From positions 1 to 34,297 of the forward strand of contig JAPLKA010000114.1 of NCBI GenBank assembly GCA_026388315.1: 34,297 nt of DNA, read 5' to 3'. The translations under genes and the position numbers were made by a program. This stretch comes from Pseudomonadota bacterium (GTDB taxonomy: Bacteria > Desulfobacterota > Syntrophorhabdia > Syntrophorhabdales > Syntrophorhabdaceae). A model generated the notes under the pieces. It ran no database searches and was not told the DNA's origin. It saw only the letters and a program-made list of their open reading frames with translations. Below, one piece after another: positions 16,426-17,501 of the stretch (position 1 is the stretch's first letter; each line of letters opens with the position of its first letter).

Positions 16426-16836
16426 CTATTTACACTCTCCGACTGAACCGACCTTGCATCTCTTGCCATTGGTCCACGTTGCCTGATCAAAGTAGGTCTT
16501 GCTAAAGTTTGCCTTGGACACATCGGCACCGGACAGATTGGCTTCAAAGAGATTAGCGCCGGATAGATTAGCGCCGGACAGATTAGCCTTGGAGAGGTTT
16601 CCGCCAAATAAGGTTGAATTCGATAGGTCAGCCCCGGATAAATTTGCGGAAGAGAGATCGGTGTAACTCATATCCAGATTATTCAATTTTGCCCCTGAAA
16701 GGTCACACTTCTTGCAGTTGTTTGTTTTCTTCAGGGCCTGAACCTGCTTTTCATCAAACCCGTAAAGAACCGTCAAAGTAACAAAAAAACAGACAACAGT
16801 TATAACAATGGTCAAAACTCCTTTTCCTCTACACAT
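16426..16836 (-). CDS. Exported pentapeptide-repeat protein
   Basis: A 136-aa protein. The first 26 residues (ITVVCFFVTLTVLYGF) look like a signal peptide or anchor. From about residue 43 to 118 there are some 14 A(D/N)LSx-type pentapeptides, e.g. ANLSGADLSNSTL and ANLSGANLFEANLSGADV, which form a right-handed quadrilateral beta-helix. Four Cys lie near the ends (NCKKC before the helix, two in KRCKVGSVGEC after), possibly disulphides capping the solenoid. GGGAGGT sits 5 nt before the ATG. The leader upstream is about 300 nt long and contains two tandem copies of a terminator-bearing structured element, so expression is probably controlled by attenuation. The function of the protein is unknown. 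Confidence 0.85.
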   Translation of the reverse strand: MCRGKGVLTIVITVVCFFVTLTVLYGFDEKQVQALKKTNNCKKCDLSGAKLNNLDMSYTDLSSANLSGADLSNSTLFGGNLSKANLSGANLSGANLFEANLSGADVSKANFSKTYFDQATWTNGKRCKVGSVGECK

Positions 16837-16871
16837 AAAAACCTCCCGTTAATTTATTTGAAAACTACCAA

Positions 16872-16910
16872 TAAAAAAAGCCACTACCTGAAGACATTGC
16901 TTCAGGTGGC
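16872..16910 (-). terminator. Attenuator terminator, copy A (proximal)
   Basis: On the minus strand ACCTGAAG and CTTCAGGT pair, with an outer GCC/GGC, followed by seven U. It lies 36 nt before the pentapeptide start codon, so it would abort transcription before the gene unless an alternative fold prevents it. Confidence 0.85.
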
Positions 16911-16935
16911 GGCCCGACCATCCGATATATTTACC

Positions 16936-16969
16936 TCCAGAGACATGAAGCATCTCTGAACCCATTCAG
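16936..16969 (-). promoter_or_regulatory. Candidate antiterminator/sensor hairpins, copy A
   Basis: Two mutually exclusive hairpins share the bases CAG: CUGAA-UGGG-UUCAG (16956-16969) and UUCAGAGA...UCUCUGGA (16936-16960). The loop bases UGCUUCA (16946-16952 on the opposite strand) are perfectly complementary, over 7 nt, to UGAAGCA in the 5' arm and loop of the terminator (16898-16904). Such a pairing would compete with terminator formation. The same arrangement recurs in copy B at 17074-17107. Confidence 0.6.
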
Positions 16970-17009
16970 ATATTCAATTGTAAGTTTTCTCTATAGCATA
17001 AATACCCAA

Positions 17010-17048
17010 TAAAAAAAGCCACTACCTGAAGACATTGCTTCAGGTGGC
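17010..17048 (-). terminator. Attenuator terminator, copy B (promoter-proximal)
   Basis: Identical to copy A, 138 bp upstream, with its own seven-U tract. Polymerase must pass both hairpins to reach the pentapeptide gene. Confidence 0.85.
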
Positions 17049-17145
17049 GGCCCGACCATCCGATATATTTACCTCCAGAGACATGAAGCATCTCTGAACC
17101 CATTCAAATATTCAATTGTAAGTTTTTACTATGTCATAATATATC

Positions 17146-17173
17146 TATATAACCTTGAGGATAAGGAAGTCAA
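17146..17173 (-). promoter_or_regulatory. Promoter driving the tandem leader and pentapeptide gene
   Basis: On the minus strand TTGACT (17173-17168) and TATATA (17151-17146) are 16 nt apart, five of six matches each. Predicted transcription starts near 17139, just upstream of the first repeat copy, giving a leader of about 300 nt. Confidence 0.6.
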
Positions 17174-17382: not shown

Positions 17383-17501
17383 GAAACAAGGGACACCCAG
17401 AGTTGATTAGCTCGCAAAAACATCACGGGTTTCATCTTTATTCCGCCTCGCAAGGTTGCTGCGGGCTTCATGCCATATCTGGCTATGAGTGTCCCTTGTT
17501 T
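17383..17501. ncRNA. Structured non-coding element closed by a 13-bp inverted repeat
   Basis: AAACAAGGGACAC (17384-17396) and GTGTCCCTTGTTT (17489-17501) are perfect complements enclosing 92 bp. Inside are CCAGA/TCTGG, a GCCA-TATC-TGGC hairpin, and CCGC..GCAA-GG-TTGC.GCGG. There is no ORF. It could be a structured small RNA or a MITE-like element; the strand is undetermined. The flanks (17174-17382 and 17502-17646) hold no gene I can support. Confidence 0.45.

Follow-up and report, generated by a model that had tools for sequence, protein, structure and literature searches.

The nhaA-I motif RNA is known as the Li+-I riboswitch, an ON switch that responds to Li+ (PMC9646797, White et al. 2022). 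Most published members are considered to regulate the ribosome binding site, and nhaA is a common downstream gene. Relatives that carry terminators are confined to Deltaproteobacteria; one of them is a Na+-responsive ON switch, and the group was named Na+-II (PMC9646797). In the case of the terminator-bearing nhaA-I RNA from Desulfobulbus propionicus, Na+ activates in single-round transcription, with a K_D in the low mM range. A C at position 54 of this RNA was linked to Na+ selectivity, and the C54U mutant responds to Li+, Na+, and NH4+ (PMC9646797). The Na+-I riboswitch (DUF1646 motif, PMC9337991) has a related consensus; it too turns expression on in response to Na+, in competition with a terminator. 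Tandem arrangements of Li+-I aptamers, six doublets and one triplet, have already been counted (PMC9481103; doublets and a triplet are also given in PMC9646797), their targets being generally cation transport and osmotic stress genes. Tandem riboswitches for the same ligand give steeper responses (PMC9481103).

Here, we analyzed a window of 34,297 nucleotides from a member of Syntrophorhabdaceae, the family to which the genome of Syntrophorhabdus MAG PtaU1.Bin058 also belongs. We estimate a probability of ca. 0.85 that a doublet of ON-type nhaA-I ion riboswitches controls transcription of a pentapeptide-repeat gene in this window from one promoter. The RNA class, its ON mechanism, and its occurrence in tandem have all been published before; the new details are the conserved link to the pentapeptide-repeat gene and a C at the base of helix P2 that is enriched in the family.

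Class membership and layout of the leader

All elements of the leader, including the promoter, both riboswitch units, and the gene, are carried by the minus strand. A −35 box is followed by two 138-nt direct repeats and then by a gene of 136 codons (16836–16426):

17168–17173, minus strand: −35 box TTGACT (read from 17173 to 17168) of the sole promoter; TTGAC[A/T] is kept in the family
17146–17151, minus strand: candidate −10 box TATATA after a 16-nt spacer, by direct reading; weak consensus, with a similar block in close relatives
17006–17143, minus strand: riboswitch unit 1, promoter-proximal, 138-nt direct repeat
17043–17101, minus strand: aptamer 1, nhaA-I (Li+-I/Na+-II); RF03057 46.8 bits, model positions 1–55; basal P2 C at 17044
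17011–17051, minus strand: intrinsic terminator 1, U7 at 17017–17011; from fold (z = −5.0), terminator scan, and covariation
16868–17005, minus strand: riboswitch unit 2, gene-proximal, 138-nt direct repeat
16905–16963, minus strand: aptamer 2, nhaA-I (Li+-I/Na+-II); RF03057 46.8 bits, full model; basal P2 C at 16906
16873–16913, minus strand: intrinsic terminator 2, U7 at 16879–16873; from terminator scan and fold
16842–16847, minus strand: Shine–Dalgarno sequence GGGAGG, by direct reading
16426–16836, minus strand: controlled gene, encoding a 136-aa pentapeptide-repeat protein (Pfam PF00805, 73.9 bits)

Class membership was assigned at an RF03057 covariance-model score equal to or above the gathering score of 37. 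Both units match RF03057 (nhaA-I) with 46.8 bits over positions 1–55 of the 55-position model (E = 2e-6 in a whole-window Rfam search), and no other Rfam class was reported in the region up to E = 1. The conserved blocks of the class, GGGU, AGGU, and UGGUCGGGCCGCCA, can be read directly in the units of the window. Judged by model score and sequence, both units are members of the known nhaA-I class, Li+-I/Na+-II. The original prediction had recognized no known class at this site and held that an Rfam hit would make the RNA not new, which is how the matter now stands. Its broader claim, that tandem units of riboswitch type attenuate transcription ahead of a pentapeptide-repeat gene, was borne out.

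The units resemble the Li+-I riboswitch in consensus sequence, in having both P1 and P2, and in matching the model over its full length, and ON logic is expected; they differ from it in carrying terminators and in preceding a pentapeptide-repeat gene. With the D. propionicus Na+-II RNA they have in common both the aptamer class and the intrinsic-terminator platform; both hosts belong to Deltaproteobacteria in the old sense, and both RNAs precede a gene of unknown function. An intrinsic terminator overlapping P2 in a deltaproteobacterium, one of the features of the Na+-II variant, is present in each unit of the window. The D. propionicus example consists of one unit, whereas the window contains two, whose ligand is a prediction. 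For the related Na+-I riboswitch, no match to the units was reported even at E up to 1.

The promoter had been called from sequence, and the call appears reasonable: a TTGAC[A/T] box lies upstream of 25 out of 25 homologous leaders in Syntrophorhabdaceae. Sequence reading revealed no −35 box of the TTGAC type in front of unit 2. The TTGACT/TATATA promoter, a weak match to consensus, was not listed by a generic promoter scan. Between this promoter and a radical-SAM gene, positions 17384–17501 contain an imperfect inverted repeat with 19-nt arms that are 89% complementary. It is a small interspersed repeat with three copies in the genome, the other two being 96% and 88% identical.

Competition between P2 and the terminator

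In each unit, GCCGCCAC can pair in two ways, as the 3′ strand of helix P2 in the aptamer or as the 5′ arm of the terminator (17051–17011 and 16913–16873); in unit 1, the overlap with the P2 3′ strand falls at 17048–17042. The terminator hairpin has a predicted folding energy of −22.3 kcal/mol, and none of 200 shuffled sequences was equally stable. Each unit folds into the stem-loops that had been described and closes with this strong hairpin and a run of seven U.

Pairing was evaluated by aligning 28 homologous units found in Syntrophorhabdaceae. In P1, 97.8% of the cells were paired, and changes on both sides were seen at seven of eight pairs. In the terminator, 89% were paired, with both-sided changes at six of 14 pairs. 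As a control, the partner strand was slid by 1–3 nt, which gave pairing of about 31–54%; the real pairing of P1 and of the terminator far exceeds these values. Covariation in homologues, which the original prediction had set as a check, is thus present in both helices. It was right in describing mutually exclusive pairings, and the 28-unit alignment supports both alternative folds. Across the phylum, 94 of 103 nhaA-I units surveyed have the P2 3′ strand within a terminator stem that leads into a T run; members of the class under terminator control are common there, not rare. Taken on the aligned sequences, the conserved switch is a competition between P2 and the terminator for the GCCGCCAC strand.

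Since P2 and the terminator share one strand, ion binding should stabilize P2 and allow transcription to pass. In the absence of the ion, GCCGCCAC in each unit would form the 5′ arm of the terminator, and RNA polymerase would stop at 17011 or 16873. When the ion is bound, P2 would hold GCCGCCAC, the terminator would be blocked, and transcription would continue. The single upstream promoter would, in this way, drive the pentapeptide-repeat gene through a doublet of ON-type ion riboswitches. Both the ON direction and ion sensing at this locus should hold by analogy with the published relatives, from which they are carried over.

The controlled gene and its probable signal

The pentapeptide-repeat protein has a hydrophobic, signal-peptide-like N-terminus and is probably exported, as far as can be told from its sequence. 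It contains four conserved cysteines, which are invariant in ten aligned orthologues. Orthologues are found behind nhaA-I RNA in 24 Syntrophorhabdaceae genomes, the window's own included. The genome of the host contains eight pentapeptide-repeat matches in all, and a genome search located nhaA-I RNA at just one site, in front of the gene described here. No nhaA gene was found behind the leaders of Syntrophorhabdaceae. The main text of the tandem Li+-I papers contains no pentapeptide-repeat target, and of five papers that contain both terms, none, judged on title and abstract, concerns pentapeptide-repeat proteins under riboswitch control. A conserved, uncharacterized, probably exported protein is tied to an ion-sensing RNA class in one family, which suggests that it is produced under ion or osmotic stress.

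Outside the family, phylum targets of nhaA-I include Na_Ca_ex, CitMHS/NhaD-like, Na_H_Exchanger, and OAD_gamma (OadG) genes, as well as probable compatible-solute genes. By association, these phylum-wide targets point to Na+ or osmotic stress. Na+ is predicted to be the most likely ligand in the host, and we consider this probable. The signal is likely to be Na+ or Na+-linked osmotic stress, and the pentapeptide-repeat protein, which is probably exported, is likely to take part in the response.

The principal alternative keeps the same architecture but assigns it a different ligand: Li+, as in the canonical Li+-I riboswitch, or a relaxed set of Li+, Na+, and NH4+. The class is named for Li+, and the relaxed response of the C54U mutant gives the second version a precedent. 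The basal P2 base is a C in both units of the window (17044 and 16906); 24 of 37 units in the family share it, as compared to three of 66 others. Among the 28 aligned family units, 20 have C and eight have U at this position; the C breaks an A–U pair of the class consensus in 20 of the 28. A second position variable between U and C lies at the apex of P2 (U in the window), and either P2 site could be “54”. The D. propionicus RNA was not among the matches listed in a pattern scan, which returned many GC-rich chance matches, and was not recognized in searches of the phylum, genus, and family. Given the apical site and the failure to locate the D. propionicus sequence, we do not claim that the basal C is position 54. 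Orthologous genes are found behind both C-type and U-type units (the latter in some genera), and the basal base therefore does not define the regulon, a point in favor of the Li+ or relaxed-specificity alternative. This alternative is opposed by the lack of nhaA downstream of the family leaders, by the fact that the published Na+ group consists of terminator-bearing deltaproteobacterial members, and by the phylum targets, which are mostly Na+ or osmotic genes, though some terminator-bearing members do seem to lie before nhaA. We consider it unlikely, while giving it more weight than any other competing explanation.

Returning to Na+ as the favored ligand, a more far-reaching proposal can be made tentatively, and we regard it as rather doubtful: the variant with C at basal P2, which is concentrated in Syntrophorhabdaceae, may be a cation sensor with shifted specificity, and the small, four-cysteine exported pentapeptide-repeat protein may be an unrecognized sodium or osmotic stress factor. 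If true, this would offer a first clue to the physiology of this group of proteins.

Two further sets of nhaA-I units were observed elsewhere in the phylum. At L230, L241, L250, and L251, units lie before likely compatible-solute genes, comprising a glucosyl/mannosylglycerate-type glycosyltransferase with a HAD phosphatase, and a trehalose-phosphatase-like gene; the glycosyltransferase and phosphatase genes look like compatible-solute synthesis genes, judging from their translations and from weak Pfam hits (MGS_GT similarity that is weak, and matches of HAD type). At L252, L255, and L256, terminator-bearing units with U at basal P2 lie upstream of genes whose translations, read by eye, are nhaA-like, so that terminator platforms in the phylum extend beyond genes of unknown function.

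Loop–terminator pairing and the tandem copies

According to the original prediction, a UGCUUCA loop pairs with UGAAGCA in the terminator and acts as an antiterminator, and the locus could represent a new class of attenuator. The 7-nt complementarity is real and exceeds that of shuffled loops in the window (p about 0.01). It is complete in no other family unit (5 nt of it in genome G010), and the RF03057 match is clear. The pairing was accordingly rejected as a conserved mechanism, and a new class working through it is very improbable. Additional pairing between the 5′ leader and the P2 5′ strand was also considered and set aside: it is predicted in some units, mostly of close relatives, and is absent in most of the family. 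That the units are a mobile or selfish repeat pair, non-regulatory and with terminators by chance, might be suggested by their near-identity as direct repeats and by the different short repeat at 17384–17501, but this is scarcely credible given the single nhaA-I site in the genome, and is refuted by the conserved gene link in relatives and the compensatory changes.

The proposed ON-type riboswitch doublet consists of direct repeats that are 96% identical over 134 nt at a spacing of 138, in agreement with the predicted pair of near-identical 138-bp units. A single base difference between the copies had been reported. The structured aptamer–terminator part is indeed identical, with one T/C difference just upstream, while the whole 138-nt unit has nine differences, eight of them within the first 17 nt. 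Compared with their counterparts in close relatives, the units show 74–88% identity; this range leaves aside the leader of the G019 paralogue and the second leader of G002, which is unrelated. Being closer to each other (95%) than to the units of relatives, they form a recent doublet. G005 has its own doublet, 91% identical, and G019 an older one, 77% identical; tandem copies before orthologous genes seem to have more than one origin. The phylum also contains further doublets and one triplet.

Like the published Li+-I doublets and triplet, the window contains same-class aptamers in series, and here each aptamer has its own terminator. The features of a pseudo-cooperative tandem are all found: two complete RF03057 aptamers, two terminators, and a promoter box that precedes unit 1 only. 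With both terminators passed in series, output would be close to the two read-through probabilities multiplied together. For this reason, the doublet should leak less and respond more steeply to dose. Tandems mixing U-type and C-type units, as for a two-ion logic gate, were not seen; the listed doublets and the triplet agree at basal P2.

In a triplet (L224, G172) and a doublet (L216, G144), each nhaA-I unit has its own terminator, and the arrays precede a gene for a protein of 154–159 aa whose N-terminus is hydrophobic; for the one at L224, there is no match in Pfam. In the second unit of L173 (G005), near position 2700, the U run is lost and the start codon of the pentapeptide-repeat gene directly follows the 3′ arm of the terminator; from this sequence, the unit may act on translation instead.
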